From Pectobacterium versatile (GTDB taxonomy: Bacteria > Pseudomonadota > Gammaproteobacteria > Enterobacterales > Enterobacteriaceae): a stretch of 64,000 nt of DNA. The notes beneath the pieces are model-generated. The model ran no database searches. It had not been told where the DNA came from and saw nothing but the letters and a program-made list of their open reading frames with translations. The translations under genes and the position numbers were made by a program. Location: assembly GCF_020166435.1 (NCBI RefSeq), contig NZ_JAINZP010000004.1, positions 1 to 64,000 on the forward strand, read 5' to 3'. Below, piece after piece: positions 2,246-11,976 of this stretch (position 1 is its first letter; the number at the start of each line of letters is the position of its first letter).

Positions 2246-3226
2246 ATGGATAACGCCTTTAGCCCTTCGGACTTAAAAACCATTCTGCATTCCAAACGTG
2301 CCAATGTTTATTACCTCCAGCATTGCCGCATTCTCGTTAACGGTGGCCGTGTCGAATATGTCACGGAAGAAGGAAACCAGTCCCTGTACTGGAATATCCC
2401 CATCGCCAATACCAGCGTTGTCATGCTGGGAACCGGCACCTCCGTCACGCAGGCAGCGATGCGGGAATTTGCCAGAGCTGGTGTAATGGTTGGCTTTTGT
2501 GGCGGCGGCGGTACTCCGCTGTTTGCGGCCAACGAGGCGGAAGTGGCGGTATCCTGGCTATCGCCGCAGAGCGAATATCGACCAACCGAGTATTTGCAGG
2601 ACTGGGTCAGCTTTTGGTTCGATGATGAGAAAAGGCTGGCCGCCGCCATCGCCTTCCAACAGGTGCGGATAACACAAATTCGTCAGCACTGGCTGGGCTC
2701 TCGTTTGTCCCGCGAATCCCGCTTTACCTTTAAAGCCGACCATCTTCAGGCGCTTCTTGATCGATATGAAAAAGGGCTAACCGACTGCCACACCAGCAAT
2801 GACGTGCTGGTGCAGGAAGCGATGATGACCAAAGCCCTGTACAAACTGGCCGCCACTGCCGTGAGCTATGGCGACTTTACCCGCGCCAAACGCGGCGGTG
2901 GTACCGATCTGGCCAATCGCTTTCTCGATCACGGTAATTATCTGGCTTATGGGCTGGCTGCCGTCGCGACGTGGGTGTTGGGTCTGCCGCACGGATTAGC
3001 GGTGTTGCACGGTAAAACTCGCCGCGGCGGGCTGGTATTCGACGTCGCTGATTTAATTAAGGACGCACTCGTACTGCCACAGGCGTTTATTGCCGCGATG
3101 GAAGGCGAGGATGAGCAAGAATTTCGTCAGCGCTGCCTGACCGCATTCCAACAATCCGAGGCGCTGGATGTGATGATCGGCGGTTTGCAGGATGTCGCCA
3201 GCACGCTGAGTCAGGTGGGTCGATGA
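2246..3226 (+). CDS. cas1: Cas1, type I-F CRISPR integrase
   Basis: Cas1 of subtype I-F (326 aa) is the metal-dependent nuclease/integrase that inserts new spacers at the leader end of the arrays, in complex with Cas2-3. The C-terminal helical domain carries the expected metal ligands Glu191, His255 (in AVLHGKTRRGG) and Asp266/Asp269 (VFDVADLIKD). The N-terminal half is the beta-sandwich domain. It is the first gene of the cas operon, divergent from array 1. Its TGA overlaps the ATG of cas2-3 (ATGA), so the two partners are translationally coupled. The ATG at 2246 fits the family N-terminus (MDNAF...), and length is normal. Confidence 0.97.
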   Translation: MDNAFSPSDLKTILHSKRANVYYLQHCRILVNGGRVEYVTEEGNQSLYWNIPIANTSVVMLGTGTSVTQAAMREFARAGVMVGFCGGGGTPLFAANEAEVAVSWLSPQSEYRPTEYLQDWVSFWFDDEKRLAAAIAFQQVRITQIRQHWLGSRLSRESRFTFKADHLQALLDRYEKGLTDCHTSNDVLVQEAMMTKALYKLAATAVSYGDFTRAKRGGGTDLANRFLDHGNYLAYGLAAVATWVLGLPHGLAVLHGKTRRGGLVFDVADLIKDALVLPQAFIAAMEGEDEQEFRQRCLTAFQQSEALDVMIGGLQDVASTLSQVGR

Positions 3227-6200
3227 ACATTCTGCTAATTTCAGAATGCAATAAGCGCGCGCTGGTCGAAACCCGCCGGATACTGGATCAGTTTGCCGAA
3301 CGCAAGGGCGAGCGTACGTGGCAAACCGCTATTACGCAGGAAGGGTTGAACACGCTACGCAAGCTGCTGCGCAAAACGGCGCGTCGTAATACGGCCGTCG
3401 CCTGTCACTGGGTTCGCAGTGCGAATCATACCGAGCTGCTGTGGATCGTCGGTAATTTACGGCGTTTTAATGCACAGGGGAGCGTGCCGACCAACACCAC
3501 CAGCCGCGATATTCTGCGCTCAAAAGATGAAAATCCGTGGCACAACGCCGAGGTGTTTAGCCTGCTGGCGGCCATTGCCGGGTTATTCCACGATGTCGGC
3601 AAGGCCAATGCGCTATTTCAGTCAGGGTTGAGCGGCACAGGTCCACGCAGCCAACCGTATCGGCATGAATGGGTGTCGCTGCGGCTGTTTCAGGCCTTCG
3701 TGGGGGAGCAAGACGACAAAGGCTGGTTAACCGTACTCAGTAGCATCACTTCGGAAGCCGAAGTCACTTTGCTCGCCAGCCTAAAGCAAGATACGCCAGC
3801 AGTGAACGACACGCCATTTCTGACCCTGCCGCCGCTGGCGCAAGTTATCGCCTGGCTGATTGTGTCGCACCATCGGCTGCCTGTGTTTAACAAATCGACA
3901 GAGCTTACACCCAACAGCAGTGAACCGCAGCTCAACTATGCAGAAACATGGTTAACCGACCATCTCTCGGCACAATGGAATGCACTCAATCATTGCAAGA
4001 CCGATGTCACGCCAGCCAATCTGGCACAGGTGTGGCAGTTTCCTCACGGTACGCCGCTGCGCAGCAGCGTCTGGCGTGAGAAGGCGCGCAAGTTTGCGGG
4101 TCGAGCGCTAAAACTCCCCTCATTCATGCATTTCGCTCAGTTAGATCAACGGTTGACCGTGCATCTGGCTCGTCTCGCACTCATGCTGGCTGACCACCAT
4201 TATTCAGCAGGCGATCCAACAGCGGGCTGGCAGGATCCCGCTTATCCCGTCTGGGCTAACACCGATCGCAAAACGGGGGAATATAAACAGAAGCTGGACG
4301 AACACTGCGTCGGCGTCGGGCAAAATGCTCTGCTGCTGGGACGCAGCCTGCCACACCTGCGCGACACGCTACCCGCGATTACTCGCCACAAAGGTTTCCG
4401 TCAGCGCAGCACGCACCCGCGCTTTCGCTGGCAGGATCGCGCATTCGATCTTGCCTGTTCCATTCAGGAATCCAGCAAGCAGCATGGTTTTTTCGGCGTC
4501 AACATGGCCTCGACAGGCCGGGGGAAAACCTTCGCTAACGCGCGAATTATGTATGGGTTGGCAGATGAAGCGCTCGGCTGCCGCTTCTCAGTCGCGCTGG
4601 GGTTACGCACGCTGACGCTGCAAACCGGTGATGCGCTACGGCAGCGCTTAACGCTGGATGAAGACGACTTAGCGGTGCTGATTGGTTCACAGGCCGTACA
4701 AGATCTCCATGAAATGCGGTTGGAAAATGAGACGCGCCAACAGCACACGCCGCAGACGGGCAGTGAATCCGCCGATCCGCTGTTCTCTGAACATCAGTAT
4801 GTTCGTTACGATGGCTCGCTGGACGATGGCAGGTTAAAGACGTGGCTGGAACGTAGCCCAACCCTGCATCAATTACTGAGTGCACCGGTGCTGATCACCA
4901 CCATCGATCACCTGATGCCCGCAATGGAAAGTCTGCGCGGCGGCCACCAGATTGCCCCGATGCTACGGCTATTGACCTCCGATCTGGTGCTAGATGAACC
5001 GGATGATTTTGGGCTGGAAGATCTTCCCGCGCTGTGCCGACTGGTGAACTGGGCAGGAATGCTGGGATCGCGTGTTCTACTTTCCTCGGCCACGTTGCCA
5101 CCCGCGTTAATTCGCGCGTTGTTCGGTGCCTATCTTGATGGCCGTGCCGCCTGGCAACAGGCTTACGGTACACCGAATACACCGCTTAACGTGTGCTGCG
5201 GCTGGTTTGATGAATTTGATTGTCAGCATGAGCAATATGGTGATGTGAAAAGCTTCATGACCCAGCACGATGCGTTCGTTCAGCAGCGGCTGAAGAATCT
5301 TACCAAAGAGGAACTTCCGCTTCGGCTGGCCTCCATTGTGCCCGTCAGTAGCCCCAGCAAAAATAAAGATGATGTTCATTTGGCTGTCGCGCAGGCGATC
5401 CACCCACTGATACGCGATTTGCACTTACAGCACCATCAGAAACACAAGAACGGCAAAGCCGTTTCTCTGGGGCTGGTCAGAATGGCGAATATCAATCCGC
5501 TGGTTGCCGTCGCCCGTCAGTTGCTTGCTATACCTTCGCCGCCGGACACCTGTATTCATTACTGCATTTATCACAGCCAACACCCGCTGGCGATGCGTTC
5601 CTATATTGAGCAGCGGCTCGATGCCGCGCTGATGCGTAACGACGCCGATGCGCTGTGGCAGGTGGCGGAGATTCGTCAGGCGATAGAAAACGCGCCGCAG
5701 CAGCATCATATCTTTGTGGTGTTAGCGACCTCAGTCGCCGAAGTCGGTAGAGACCATGATTACGATTGGGCGATTGTCGAACCCAGCTCAATGCGTTCAT
5801 TTATTCAGCTTGCCGGACGAATATTACGCCATAGACAGGATGAACAGCATGTACCTAAAACCCCCAATATCTATCTGCTTAGCCACAATATTCGCGCGCT
5901 GAGAGGTGAAGACGTCGCGTACTGTAAGCCTGGGTTTGAATCTAACGATGAACCGCTAACCACACATGACCTTCGTCAGCTATTGCAGGAGGAGGACTAC
6001 CGTCATCTCAACGCCGCCCCGCGCATTGTGCAACCGGCAGCCCTCACCAAGCCGTTTTCACTGGTGGCGTTAGAACATGCTGTTTTAGGAAAAACGCTAC
6101 TTGGCCTAAAAAATCAAAATCTTGATGGGCTGAAACGCCCGCCCGCCGCGTTTTGGTGGCGCGCACATCCGCACTGGAACGGTGAACTCCAACGGCGTAC

Positions 6201-6525
6201 GCCATTTCGTCAATCTGCAAAAGATGAACCGTACACCCTGTGGATCGCCGACGACGATGAAGATGCCGTTTTCATGATACCGGACGACGGCCCCAGCAAG
6301 TGGAAGCAAAGCGATGTGATCCGCCCCACGTCACTGCACATGGCAGAAGGCGTTTGTGCATGGCTCGATCCCGACTACCACGCCTTATACCAGCGACTGG
6401 CGGACGAGAAACAGTGGGAACTCAAACGGGTTAGCGAACGCTTCGGCGAAATTCGCCTACGGGAAAAAGAGGCAAAAGACTGGCTCTGGCACCCGCTGTT
6501 AGGGGTGTTTGGCGCACTCAACTGA
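3223..6525 (+). CDS. cas2-3: Cas2-Cas3 fusion, type I-F nuclease-helicase
   Basis: This 1100-aa fusion is diagnostic of subtype I-F. Roughly the first 90 residues form the Cas2 domain that scaffolds Cas1. An HD nuclease domain follows (FHDVGK with His123-Asp124, then downstream histidines near 147 and 230). The superfamily 2 helicase has Walker A STGRGKT at about 430-436, the Walker B-like DEPD at 591-594, SSAT at 621-624 and the motif VI region QLAGRILRH from 862. It degrades DNA bound by the Csy complex and takes part in adaptation. All motifs are intact with no frameshift. The start overlaps the cas1 stop. Degenerate CRISPR repeats begin directly after the stop codon. Confidence 0.97.
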   Translation: MNILLISECNKRALVETRRILDQFAERKGERTWQTAITQEGLNTLRKLLRKTARRNTAVACHWVRSANHTELLWIVGNLRRFNAQGSVPTNTTSRDILRSKDENPWHNAEVFSLLAAIAGLFHDVGKANALFQSGLSGTGPRSQPYRHEWVSLRLFQAFVGEQDDKGWLTVLSSITSEAEVTLLASLKQDTPAVNDTPFLTLPPLAQVIAWLIVSHHRLPVFNKSTELTPNSSEPQLNYAETWLTDHLSAQWNALNHCKTDVTPANLAQVWQFPHGTPLRSSVWREKARKFAGRALKLPSFMHFAQLDQRLTVHLARLALMLADHHYSAGDPTAGWQDPAYPVWANTDRKTGEYKQKLDEHCVGVGQNALLLGRSLPHLRDTLPAITRHKGFRQRSTHPRFRWQDRAFDLACSIQESSKQHGFFGVNMASTGRGKTFANARIMYGLADEALGCRFSVALGLRTLTLQTGDALRQRLTLDEDDLAVLIGSQAVQDLHEMRLENETRQQHTPQTGSESADPLFSEHQYVRYDGSLDDGRLKTWLERSPTLHQLLSAPVLITTIDHLMPAMESLRGGHQIAPMLRLLTSDLVLDEPDDFGLEDLPALCRLVNWAGMLGSRVLLSSATLPPALIRALFGAYLDGRAAWQQAYGTPNTPLNVCCGWFDEFDCQHEQYGDVKSFMTQHDAFVQQRLKNLTKEELPLRLASIVPVSSPSKNKDDVHLAVAQAIHPLIRDLHLQHHQKHKNGKAVSLGLVRMANINPLVAVARQLLAIPSPPDTCIHYCIYHSQHPLAMRSYIEQRLDAALMRNDADALWQVAEIRQAIENAPQQHHIFVVLATSVAEVGRDHDYDWAIVEPSSMRSFIQLAGRILRHRQDEQHVPKTPNIYLLSHNIRALRGEDVAYCKPGFESNDEPLTTHDLRQLLQEEDYRHLNAAPRIVQPAALTKPFSLVALEHAVLGKTLLGLKNQNLDGLKRPPAAFWWRAHPHWNGELQRRTPFRQSAKDEPYTLWIADDDEDAVFMIPDDGPSKWKQSDVIRPTSLHMAEGVCAWLDPDYHALYQRLADEKQWELKRVSERFGEIRLREKEAKDWLWHPLLGVFGALN

Positions 6526-6601
6526 GTGCGCCGCTGCCTGTACGGCAGTTTATATGTATAGCGAACATATCTATTTCTAAGCTGCTGATACAGCAGTAGC
6601 T
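6526..6601 (-). ncRNA. Mini-CRISPR: two degenerate I-F repeats around a 20-nt pseudo-spacer (CreA/CreR-like candidate)
   Basis: Two degraded I-F repeats lie in the same orientation as array 1. The leader-side one (6574-6601) keeps the full 8-nt handle (CTTAGAAA on minus). Its stem has changed from CTGCC/GGCAG to CTGCT/AGCAG, a compensatory pair that preserves folding. The other (6526-6553) keeps an intact CTGCC/GGCAG stem but has lost its handle half. In a processed crRNA, only the first repeat's handle and the second repeat's hairpin are used, and those are the parts retained. The pseudo-spacer at 6554-6573 reads on minus TAGATATGTTCGCTATACAT. It is 20 nt long against 32 nt in the arrays. 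A decayed leftover array is the alternative, but the retained parts and the nearby target argue against it. Confidence 0.72.
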
Positions 6602-6640
6602 TAATTCTACATAGCAAGCTACATAAAAACCAATTTTTTA

Positions 6641-6663
6641 ATTTTATAGAGAATATATCTAGG
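6641..6663 (-). promoter_or_regulatory. Candidate self-target of the mini-crRNA with CC PAM
   Basis: On the minus strand, CC at 6663-6662 is followed by a 20-nt sequence (6661-6642) that matches the pseudo-spacer at 16 positions, including the first seven. Mismatches are at 8, 12, 18 and 20; positions 12 and 18 belong to the every-sixth-base set that type I effectors leave unpaired. Read on the + strand, 6557-6573 and 6645-6661 are 17-bp direct repeats with two differences. The site sits about 70 bp upstream of the 54-aa ORF and 280 bp upstream of csy1. CC is the known I-F PAM. Binding is inferred. Confidence 0.62.
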
Positions 6664-6695
6664 ATATTTACAACTATTCATTCATCAATTACTAT
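6643..6695. promoter_or_regulatory. Candidate back-to-back promoters sharing a -35 region
   Basis: On the + strand TTTACA (6667-6672), a 17-bp spacer and TACTAT (6690-6695) form a plausible sigma70 promoter for the small ORF and csy1. On the minus strand TTGTAA (6673-6668) pairs with TATAAA (6648-6643, 19-bp spacer) or TCTATA (17-bp spacer), which would start the mini-CRISPR RNA about 35 nt before its first repeat. The two -35 elements overlap, and the candidate Csy target covers the minus promoter spacer and abuts the plus -35. Assignment is by eye only. Confidence 0.4.
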
Positions 6696-6733
6696 TGCCA
6701 TATTGTGTGGGTTTGTTTACAGGCTGTTCCATC

Positions 6734-6898
6734 ATGAAACGATTAAAAATCATTTGGTTATGTGTTTCGGTTATCGCCTGTATATTGATAGTTACCCTTG
6801 GCACGAAACCAATGATTATGTATATCGATAACCAAGCGGACAGTTCAGCAAAGGGACAGCAATTCTCAATTTTTTCTATAACAATCAATCGGAACTAG
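6734..6898 (+). CDS. 54-aa single-span membrane peptide between cas2-3 and csy1 (toxin candidate)
   Basis: A 54-residue ORF begins with MKRLKIIW, a basic start followed by one hydrophobic segment (about residues 6-23) and a polar tail ending FSIFSITINRN. I do not recognise the family. An upstream TTG start at 6695 is possible but would fall inside the candidate -10, so the ATG at 6734 is preferred; its ribosome site (AGG at 6721-6723) is weak. It lies between the adaptation genes and the Csy operon, 40 bp before csy1, just downstream of the candidate mini-crRNA target. In CreTA modules this position is held by a tiny toxin repressed by the Cas effector. Toxicity here is a hypothesis, and the peptide could be a spurious ORF. 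Confidence 0.5.
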   Translation: MKRLKIIWLCVSVIACILIVTLGTKPMIMYIDNQADSSAKGQQFSIFSITINRN

Positions 6899-6914
6899 AA
6901 AAAAATTCATGTAA

Positions 6915-10790
<3,876 letters not shown>

Positions 10791-10919
10791 CCCTTTTTTT
10801 ACGACCAACTGCAAGCTATTGATTTTTAATTGCAGTTGGTCGCCCTAATAAAAAAGGGTTTTTCACCAAAAAAGTCATATTCTCTTTAAAAATCTGGTGG
10901 TTATCTTAAAACCTTAACG
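10791..10919 (+). promoter_or_regulatory. Leader of array 2 with inverted repeat, IHF site and boxA-like motif
   Basis: A perfect 13-bp inverted repeat (10802-10814 and 10830-10842) is nested inside an outer CCCTTTTTT/AAAAAAGGG pair and may end the cas operon transcript. Its loop side contains an exact IHF consensus on the minus strand (10812-10824). Further on, TCTCTTTAAA at 10881-10890 resembles boxA; boxA elements in other CRISPR leaders recruit Nus factors to prevent Rho termination. I see no matching boxA in leader 1. Both leaders share the ATTGATTTTTAAT segment, but in opposite orientation relative to their arrays. Confidence 0.55.
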
Positions 10920-11968
10920 GTTCACTGCCGCATAGGCAGCTTAGAAACTGGGGTGAAGGGGTAAGAGGGGATACCGCCCGTTCACTGCCGCATAGGCAGC
11001 TTAGAAAAGAAGTAGAAATCGAAGAGCAATCACTTGAGCGTTCACTGCCGCATAGGCAGCTTAGAAAATGTGTCGAGCGAATGCGGATTTGTTGCCGGAG
11101 TTCACTGCCGCATAGGCAGCTTAGAAATCGCGCCTTGAGCGCCTCAGGAATAGCGGATTGTTCACTGCCGCATAGGCAGCTTAGAAATTGACGGCTTCGG
11201 CTACTAATTCAAACATGGCGTTCACTGCCGCATAGGCAGCTTAGAAACGACGCGACGGAACGGCGTGGCGTCCTTAGCGGTTCACTGCCGCATAGGCAGC
11301 TTAGAAAAGCATGGTTAATGCAGGAACCTGCGAACTCAAGTTCACTGCCGCATAGGCAGCTTAGAAATATCATGCCTAGCGTTGACTAATTTAAGCATCG
11401 TTCACTGCCGCATAGGCAGCTTAGAAATCCCCCATAGCGCCACACAGGGAGCCTAATATGTTCACTGCCGCATAGGCAGCTTAGAAACGTAAGGGACAGA
11501 ATAAACTCGGTGAATGCTAGTTCACTGCCGCATAGGCAGCTTAGAAAGATCACGTATAGCCCATCTAATTACACCGAATGTTCACTGCCGCATAGGCAGC
11601 TTAGAAATGTCCACGCGTCTAGTTATGTCAGTGAACGGCGTTCACTGCCGCATAGGCAGCTTAGAAATTATCGAGCTAATGAACGCGTTTGGCGCGGAGG
11701 TTCACTGCCGCATAGGCAGCTTAGAAAGAACTGCTGATTGACTGCATCGTGCCGGAAATGTTCACTGCCGCATAGGCAGCTTAGAAAGAAACCAACTTCC
11801 ATACACTGGATTGCGCCATGTTCACTGCCGTATAGGCAGCTTAGAAAATTGGACTGATTCGCTAGCGATCGCTGAACATGTTCACTGCCGTATAGGCAGC
11901 TTAGAAAGAGTAGTTCAGATAAATACATGTAAATCATGGTGTTCACTGCCGCACAGGCAATTCGGTAC
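10920..11968 (+). CRISPR. CRISPR array 2 (type I-F), complete
   Basis: Eighteen repeats at 60-bp spacing run from 10920-10947 to a degenerate terminal copy at 11941-11968, giving 17 spacers (32 nt, the last 33 nt). The sense is plus, with the leader on the left. Fifteen leader-proximal repeats carry CCGCATAGG in the loop, while the two oldest full repeats (from 11820 and 11880) carry CCGTATAGG, the allele found throughout array 1. The terminal repeat has lost its handle end (CAATTCGGTAC in place of CAGCTTAGAAA), which is normal for the trailer end. Confidence 0.98.
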
Positions 11969-11976
11969 TTATCGGG

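Follow-up and report, generated by a model that had tools for sequence, protein, structure and literature searches.

The csy1 locus and its intergenic module

The window, by which we mean the whole stretch of 64,000 nucleotides (nt) of Pectobacterium versatile that was analysed, has a type I-F CRISPR-Cas locus with all six genes (cas1, cas2-3, csy1 to csy3 and cas6f), I-F repeats and two flanking arrays. The genes and features around the region between cas2-3 and csy1 are the following:

3223..6525, plus strand: cas2-3 (Cas23f; hmmscan E 0), stop codon at 6523-6525, PsiR2 starting immediately after it
6553-6526, minus strand: PsiR2, degenerate I-F repeat (Rfam CRISPR-DR4, 20.0 bits, E 0.12, below the gathering cut-off of 35)
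6534-6548, minus strand: PsiR2 hairpin, CUGCC-GUACA-GGCAG (fold -8.6 kcal/mol, z -3.7)
6573-6554, minus strand: guide (PsiS), TAGATATGTTCGCTATACAT, 20 nt, read from the sequence between PsiR1 and PsiR2
6601-6574, minus strand: PsiR1, degenerate I-F repeat (Rfam CRISPR-DR4, 20.7 bits, E 0.075, below the gathering cut-off of 35)
6604..6633, minus strand: predicted mini-CRISPR (creA) promoter, -35 TTGGTT at 6633-6628, 18-nt spacer, -10 TAGAAT at 6609-6604
6661-6642, minus strand: target, TAGATATATTCTCTATAAAA, with CC PAM at 6663-6662; pairs with the guide at 16 of 20 positions
6667..6695, plus strand: predicted promoter of the small open reading frame (ORF) and csy genes, -35 TTTACA at 6667-6672, 17-nt spacer, -10 TACTAT at 6690-6695
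6734..6898, plus strand: small membrane-protein ORF before csy1, 54 aa, candidate toxin (from the ORF list)
6939..8273, plus strand: csy1 (cas8f; hmmscan Cas8f, 3.3e-165)
8270-9202, plus strand: csy2 (hmmscan Cas5f)
9195-10226, plus strand: csy3 (hmmscan Cas7f)
10236-10790, plus strand: cas6f (hmmscan Cas6f)

The two I-F arrays (3-1930 and 10920-11970) lie on opposite strands and flank the cas genes. Stretches of 41 nt beside them (2013-2053 and 10790-10830) are 76% alike and in direct orientation, though the arrays are oppositely directed, and the second array has a degenerate last repeat (11938). Two spacers of the first array (1352-1383 and 1832-1863) resemble, by eye, intrinsic terminators on the strand of the array transcript and could shorten that transcript.

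An earlier note, made from the sequence alone, had described two degenerate I-F repeats around a 20-nt pseudo-spacer; both are present, and their coordinates are now fixed at 6526-6601, where the minus strand reads PsiR1, guide, PsiR2. The arrays usually have spacers of 32 nt, 12 nt more than the guide, and in them a 28-nt repeat recurs with a 60-nt period. PsiR1 is identical to the array repeat at 21 of 28 positions, carries the complete 8-nt handle CTTAGAAA and has a possible five-pair hairpin, CUGCU-GUAUC-AGCAG, whose closing C-G is U-A in the window; P. betavasculorum, with the same guide, has C-G. This canonical hairpin is not the minimum-energy fold of the window PsiR1, for which the predicted fold pairs part of the handle. 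Neither PsiR1 (z -1.4) nor the whole 80 nt (z -1.1) is unusually stable, and energy folding backs the I-F hairpin for PsiR2 and not for PsiR1. A crRNA-like guide from degenerate repeats near cas genes, as expected of CreTA, is thus present.

Pairing of guide and target

Guide and target are 68 nt apart and mismatched at positions 8, 12, 18 and 20. The match leftward from 6661, the pairing of the first 7 nt and the adjoining CC were all reproduced as the earlier note had given them, and its estimate that so good a match exceeds chance was borne out. The 343 nt downstream, which have 12 GG sites, were dinucleotide-shuffled 20,000 times: no shuffle gave a CC-flanked match of at least 16/20, and 11 gave a match this good when the PAM was not required. 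A search of the 4.83-Mb genome with guide positions 1-17, leaving 6 and 12 free, returned the target as the only CC-flanked site with at most one mismatch; allowing up to two added a single CC-flanked site, with two mismatches. P. betavasculorum (L007/L098) keeps the same guide, and its target differs only at the unpaired position 12. The site also has the character expected of a CreTA target, partial pairing next to a PAM and beside a predicted promoter, whose -35 begins 3 nt past the PAM.

Comparison of csy1 loci

Neighbourhoods of csy1 were collected in four overlapping searches of 25, 392, 394 and 369 genomes, with a Csy1 match in 14, 60, 59 and 32, respectively. Further loci came from a scan of named genome contigs, with 46 loci, and from two extractions of 20 loci each, and some genomes were included twice. 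The gap between cas2-3 and csy1 is shorter than 120 nt in 91 of the 167 loci in which both genes were placed, leaving no room for a module there; 15 more loci had no placed cas2-3. The regions scored were the 83 distinct ones of at least 120 nt or with cas2-3 unplaced. A PsiR1 candidate was found in 54 of these 83, yielding 52 distinct guides, and was absent from the other 29 regions scanned.

A pair was accepted when positions 1-5 and at least four of positions 7-11 were paired and a CC adjoined, on either strand. Under this rule a target was found in the guide's own region for 37 of the 52 distinct guides, compared with 12 of 2,652 swapped guide-region pairs, some of which may stem from related guides; a stricter one-strand rule gave 31 of 52 and 7 of 2,652. 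Because many guides are visibly unrelated to each other, the own-region matches represent guide-target covariation. This was a check that the earlier note had named, and related loci that keep the repeats do change guide and target together.

Fifteen of the 52 guide candidates lack a seed-paired CC target in their own region. Nine are weak repeat candidates (15-17/28) and the other six are L016, L088, L114, L122, L140 and L176; among repeat candidates of at least 18/28, the rule is satisfied by 29 of 35. L016 pairs at 16 of 20 positions, yet fails the rule at position 5. L148, with 16/20 pairing and a CC, was found once both strands were scanned; its target lies on the strand opposite to that of the other scored modules, and the complex would therefore sit the other way round. 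In Mixta tenebrionis (L122) there are three repeat-like elements, and by eye a guide of some 15 nt stands between the second and the third and matches a site bordered by GG, downstream of which lies a hydrophobic ORF of 34 codons; this match, possibly an even shorter guide, was excluded from the counts.

The backbone of the I-F complex flips every sixth base, leaving such positions free of the need to pair. Among 37 pairs with positions 1-5 paired, position 6 is mismatched in 25, position 12 in 27 and position 18 in 26, compared with 1, 3, 1, 1 and 1 at positions 7 to 11; the absence of mismatches at 1-5 was a selection criterion, whereas the 6-nt rhythm was not selected for. The clustering at 6, 12 and 18 extends to other modules the remark of the earlier note on base-flip positions, which in the window concerns 12 and 18. 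The window departs from the common pattern in that its position 6 is paired and its position 8 unpaired.

The PsiR1 hairpin was compared over 41 distinct sequences, in which 172 of 205 cells are paired. Shuffles, which here as for the guide match and the leftward promoter ignore the kinship of the sequences, gave a mean of 154.7 (sd 2.5), and none of 5,000 was as high. Failures occur mostly, by eye, in eight PsiR1 rows with another loop length. From this comparison, the PsiR1 hairpins are seen as kept through compensatory changes across modules.

Predicted promoters and layout

All promoters given here are consensus matches and are thus predicted. The creA promoter scores 8/12, and its -10 ends 2 nt before PsiR1. 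In 23 of 36 modules the best-scoring leftward -10 is located 2-5 nt ahead of PsiR1, where dinucleotide shuffles give a fraction of 0.205, and leftward scores of at least 9 occur in 11 of 36, against 0.113.

In the window the rightward promoter is the only promoter-like match to the consensus in 6480-7000, where 2.1 are expected by chance. Eighteen of 37 modules, as compared with 14 of 389 other GG sites, have a -35/-10 pair that scores at least 8 and begins 2-5 nt beyond the PAM, the 2-5 nt range having been picked after inspection of the same modules; no such pair starts there in the remaining 19. In a looser check, the best promoter within -25 to +45 falls at that place in 17 of 37 modules, against 27 of 333. 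The best -35 match overlaps the target in L008, L011 and L016. Since the window target lies between both predicted -35 boxes (6628-6633 and 6667-6672), one bound complex could block both promoters. Three loci of one genus (L043, L152 and L158) have guide and target without a good promoter match by the PAM, and in them a hydrophobic ORF of 20-27 codons starts 10 nt past the PAM.

Target, predicted promoter, ORF and csy1 follow one another in one direction. ORF and csy1 are separated by 40 nt with no terminator-like site between them, and may be co-transcribed. For P. atrosepticum, a single transcript that starts at the cas1 promoter is reported to cover the csy genes, and the internal promoter may therefore contribute little. 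The central proposal of the earlier note, that a mini-crRNA guides the Csy complex to the promoter by csy1, is backed by the covariation, the mismatch clustering and the placement of the -35; whether this serves to hold down a toxin, to adjust Cas levels or both was left open there, and the layout permits both.

The 54-aa membrane-protein ORF

The 54-aa ORF that the earlier note had placed before csy1 was confirmed. Its hydropathy maximum over 17 residues is 2.99 and its Shine-Dalgarno sequence is weak (AGG only). In 17 regions the stretch from target to csy1 contains a hydrophobic ORF of 44-58 aa (L001, which is that of the window, L006, L007, L008, L011, L016, L020, L027, L031, L034, L039, L048, L110, L118, L119, L147 and L148), with hydropathy computed for 14 and the remainder assessed by eye. 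The regions with a named host come from P. betavasculorum (L098 = L007), Brenneria roseae (L101 = L016), Dickeya undicola (L106 = L020), Serratia grimesii (L119), Erwinia psidii (L110) and Photorhabdus (L116 = L031, and L118). An alignment of 15 of the ORFs has a hydrophobic N-terminal half and, in several genera, the C-terminal motif FSIFSITINRN or variants of it, which L008, L011, L016 and L039 lack.

The dN/dS of the window ORF against two congeners is 0.20 (L001/L007) and 0.28 (L001/L006), and other close pairs give 0.30 (L008/L011) and 0.38 (L031/L118), estimates that are rough because the gene is very short. Distant pairs range unreliably from 0.16 to 0.63 (L001/L027, 0.63), with L034/L147 undefined. 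Three independent pairs indicate purifying selection (combined Fisher p = 0.0006), and by the close-pair values of 0.20-0.38 the ORF is evolving as a protein under such selection.

No family was found for the window ORF in Pfam or NCBIfam, and for its relative in L027 the matches, one to Pfam and three to NCBIfam, are weak and fall well short of the cut-off. The genome of the window has a single copy. A profile search of 384 genomes of the family gave 10 places with E 3.1e-5 or better, all adjoining csy1, and seven weaker places, four in long reading frames and three with stops. No free-living copy was found in these 384 genomes, where the loose first look may miss some; most of the 10 places had built the profile, so this search shows just that further copies were not found. 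When all loci up to L182 were scanned, the family occurred only in regions with a mini-array, except for the remnants in L018/L104 and L113; the ORFs of L048 and L148 are too diverged for the profile. Both remnants have lost the mini-array and the N-terminal membrane half; csy1 and a C-terminal piece persist, which would be expected if the membrane part could not be retained in the absence of its guide. In L155 the ORF stops after 20 codons, and guide and target remain. Photorhabdus asymbiotica (L113) has no cas2-3 and no mini-array upstream of csy1, where the end of a cas1-like gene is followed by the C-terminal remnant; it looks as if one deletion took cas2-3, the guide and the membrane half of the ORF.

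Gain, loss and variants of the module

On a Csy1 tree of 52 rows, the presence of the ORF (15 rows) takes 15 changes by parsimony, of which well-supported branches force at least 12. This state shows no more clustering than shuffled labels do (mean 13.1; 500 of 500 as low). The tree was built with a quick method and covers loci other than duplicates, rows of less than 380 aa, most non-enteric loci, L143-L182 (csy1 start only) and L014, L015 and L103 (csy1 split); it also omits, without good reason, L032 and L033 (copies L120 and L121), L108, L113 and L114, none of which was scored intact. Close relatives differ as well: Serratia grimesii has the module, whereas in S. quinivorans the gap is 29 nt. 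This patchiness indicates that the module is easily lost or swapped, unusually so for an addiction element.

Five non-enteric loci (L044, L045, L046, L141 and L164) have a mini-array and a CC target 51-64 nt from csy1, with no ORF of at least 18 codons between target and csy1, and from their sequences look like plain autoregulation. The same promoter plan occurs in modules with and without the ORF, which suggests that the two forms may interconvert.

Csy1 relatives on plasmids comprise 17 records, all below 60% identity. In the Acinetobacter plasmid locus L197 an all-pairs scan for CC-flanked repeats recovered a CreTA-like module with 17/20 pairing and no ATG ORF of more than 18 codons after the target; L198, also on an Acinetobacter plasmid, has a 14-nt gap and no module. 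The gap between cas2-3 and csy1 is 478 in L118. It is 776-864 nt in L058, L060, L064 and L065, from genomes of 2-3 Mb, with a repeat-like element in opposite orientation (19-21/28). Long regions, of 1027-1143 nt where measured, also occur in the Photorhabdus loci L032, L033, L038, L114 and L117, in which the module is absent or the repeats stand without a target; relatives have intact modules, and these five look like decayed ones.

Comparison with known systems

Work by Shmakov et al. (2023) is said to describe mini-arrays that target cas8 promoters, one I-F1 mini-array among them acting as a regulatory guide. The type I-F CreTA of Acinetobacter (Wang et al. 2023; PMC10097628) occupies the same intergenic place, with a 20-nt PsiS and a CC PAM; pairing is 17/20 with mismatches at 6, 11 and 18, the target is downstream of the promoter and toxicity comes from a small RNA that contains a 33-bp mini-ORF. 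As in WCHA45 and its relatives, the mini-CRISPR of the window lies between cas3 and csy1, divergent from the gene that it would repress, and shares the PsiS length, the PAM, the partial pairing and the I-F effector. It differs in that the gene codes for a 54-aa membrane protein selected as a protein, where the Acinetobacter toxin is RNA, and in that the target lies just upstream of the predicted -35.

The type I-E CreTA of Citrobacter rodentium (PMC12055562, 2025), compared by description and not by sequence, has an ATG PAM and a 96-bp ORF that must be translated, and its toxin is reported as conditionally active. The window resembles it in the intergenic place (cas3-casA there), the crRNA-like guide on the opposite strand and the promoter-side target, which there is a UP element. 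According to the reviews drawn on, CreR (types I-B, I-E and V-A) has a guide that represses the effector-gene promoter and responds to crRNA abundance and anti-CRISPRs. The window would likewise have a mini-CRISPR guide aimed at the promoter of effector genes, if ORF and csy genes share a transcript; CreR is generally uncoupled from a toxin gene in those reviews, whereas here a conserved small-protein gene heads the predicted operon. In CrePA, a protein toxin under a guided CRISPR effector, the passages reviewed describe CreP as typically having a KilA-N domain and acting on FtsZ; the window ORF, as a candidate toxin, differs in having no Pfam match such as KilA-N, which was looked for.

In the I-F1 system of Aggregatibacter (PMC7296934), a spacer of 20 nt is expected to take up four Cas7f rather than six, and the truncated complexes bind more weakly and form R-loops without cutting by Cas2/3, which fits a 20-nt guide that represses without self-cleavage. 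No account of the present module was found in the literature searched, and Pectobacterium is not mentioned in the main text of the CreTA literature searched for that word; Shmakov et al. (2023) and Shu et al. (2024) may list the module. CRISPR-guided switches are known, and what looks new is a conserved membrane-protein gene heading a csy operon that is probably repressed and the layout with the PAM beside the -35.

Proposed mechanism and alternatives

Taken together, the comparisons probably describe a module like CreTA and CreR, whose operon of a tiny protein and Csy is held down by a Csy complex of reduced length. The mini-CRISPR would be transcribed leftward from its own promoter and cut by Cas6f in both repeats, yielding a small crRNA-like guide whose 5' handle is normal and whose spacer is 20 nt long. 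This guide would assemble a shortened Csy complex that binds DNA without triggering Cas2-3, if the length rule of the other I-F1 system applies. The complex would occupy the CC-flanked target, which separates the divergent promoters, and with Cas8f abutting the -35 it would repress the rightward promoter, a step for which pairing and placement come from the comparison of loci and repression is the expected consequence. That promoter would drive the 54-aa membrane protein and then csy1, csy2, csy3 and cas6f, so the switch would both limit Csy and hold the small protein down. If free Csy falls, through mutation, an anti-CRISPR or competition among crRNAs, the promoter would open, Csy would be restocked and the small protein made. 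We place high confidence in the part that runs from the making of the guide to the repression of the promoter: guided binding at the ORF/csy promoter is, to judge from the sequences, close to certain and its repression by guided Csy very likely. Toxicity of the 54-aa protein is plausible; a toxic product, most likely acting on the membrane, is somewhat favoured.

The main alternative, rather unlikely in our view, is pure autoregulation of the CreR kind, in which guided Csy sets Csy levels and the 54-aa protein is a non-toxic accessory or regulatory membrane protein. It agrees with the five non-enteric loci in which no ORF precedes csy1 and with a window promoter that also points at csy1. P. 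atrosepticum bears on it too: a cas6f deletion strain was made and used (PMC3630108, 2013), and a 365-bp cas2-3/csy1 intergenic region is reported. Our regions L008 and L011 are close to that length (362 and 365-368 nt, a length that varies with the start taken for csy1), so P. atrosepticum may carry the module and its existing strains could serve as a test. If it does, loss of Csy is non-lethal and derepression is tolerated in culture, as with the C. rodentium toxin, and the deletion strain weighs against a strong, constitutive toxin. Autoregulation leaves unexplained, however, why 17 regions have a hydrophobic ORF exactly between the repressed promoter and csy1 and why the membrane half is missing from the only two remnants that were seen to lack a mini-array, and toxicity is described for the I-F and I-E modules published from that position.

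A toxic transcript with an incidental ORF, as in Acinetobacter CreTA, would suit the shared intergenic site, guide length, PAM and orientation; it is improbable, and was disfavoured, because the close-pair dN/dS points to protein-level selection, the FSIFSITINRN-type motif recurs across genera and the Acinetobacter module in L197, in contrast, has no comparable ORF. That the bound complex activates the promoter is highly improbable. In its favour, many modules have their target immediately before the -35, a place where activators bind, and the P. atrosepticum cas1 promoter is reported to be activated from a CRP site at -41.5; but the known CreA and CreR complexes described in the sources repress, including the C. 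rodentium one whose target covers a UP element, the best -35 overlaps the target in three modules, and positive feedback on csy would presumably lock itself. As for an old array remnant with a chance match, the degeneracy of the repeats and their scores under the Rfam cut-off would agree with it, and it was rejected, with a negligible probability, on the shuffles, the genome search, the covariation across guides and the P. betavasculorum guide, kept while its target changed only where unpaired.

Implications

Within the preferred reading of a guided Csy complex repressing the ORF and csy genes, a more tentative extension is a repair-or-die sensor, in which one derepressed transcript delivers both a membrane toxin and the Csy genes that cure it. 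Where new Csy is assembled, the promoter would shut and the cell would live; where Csy is blocked by an anti-CRISPR or broken, the toxin would keep coming. At the same tentative level, the whole reading includes membrane peptides associated with CRISPR that would form a family not described before; it occurs in several genera of Enterobacterales, possibly with the I-F model P. atrosepticum among the hosts. The some 37 natural guide-target pairs that follow the 6-nt rule of Csy provide a data set on the pairing needs of the shortened Csy complex, and a candidate family of small membrane proteins linked to CRISPR is gained. Should the reading hold, a phage with an anti-CRISPR or a mutation in csy would release a promoter from which both fresh Csy and a membrane toxin are made, and autoregulation and addiction would be combined in one operon.
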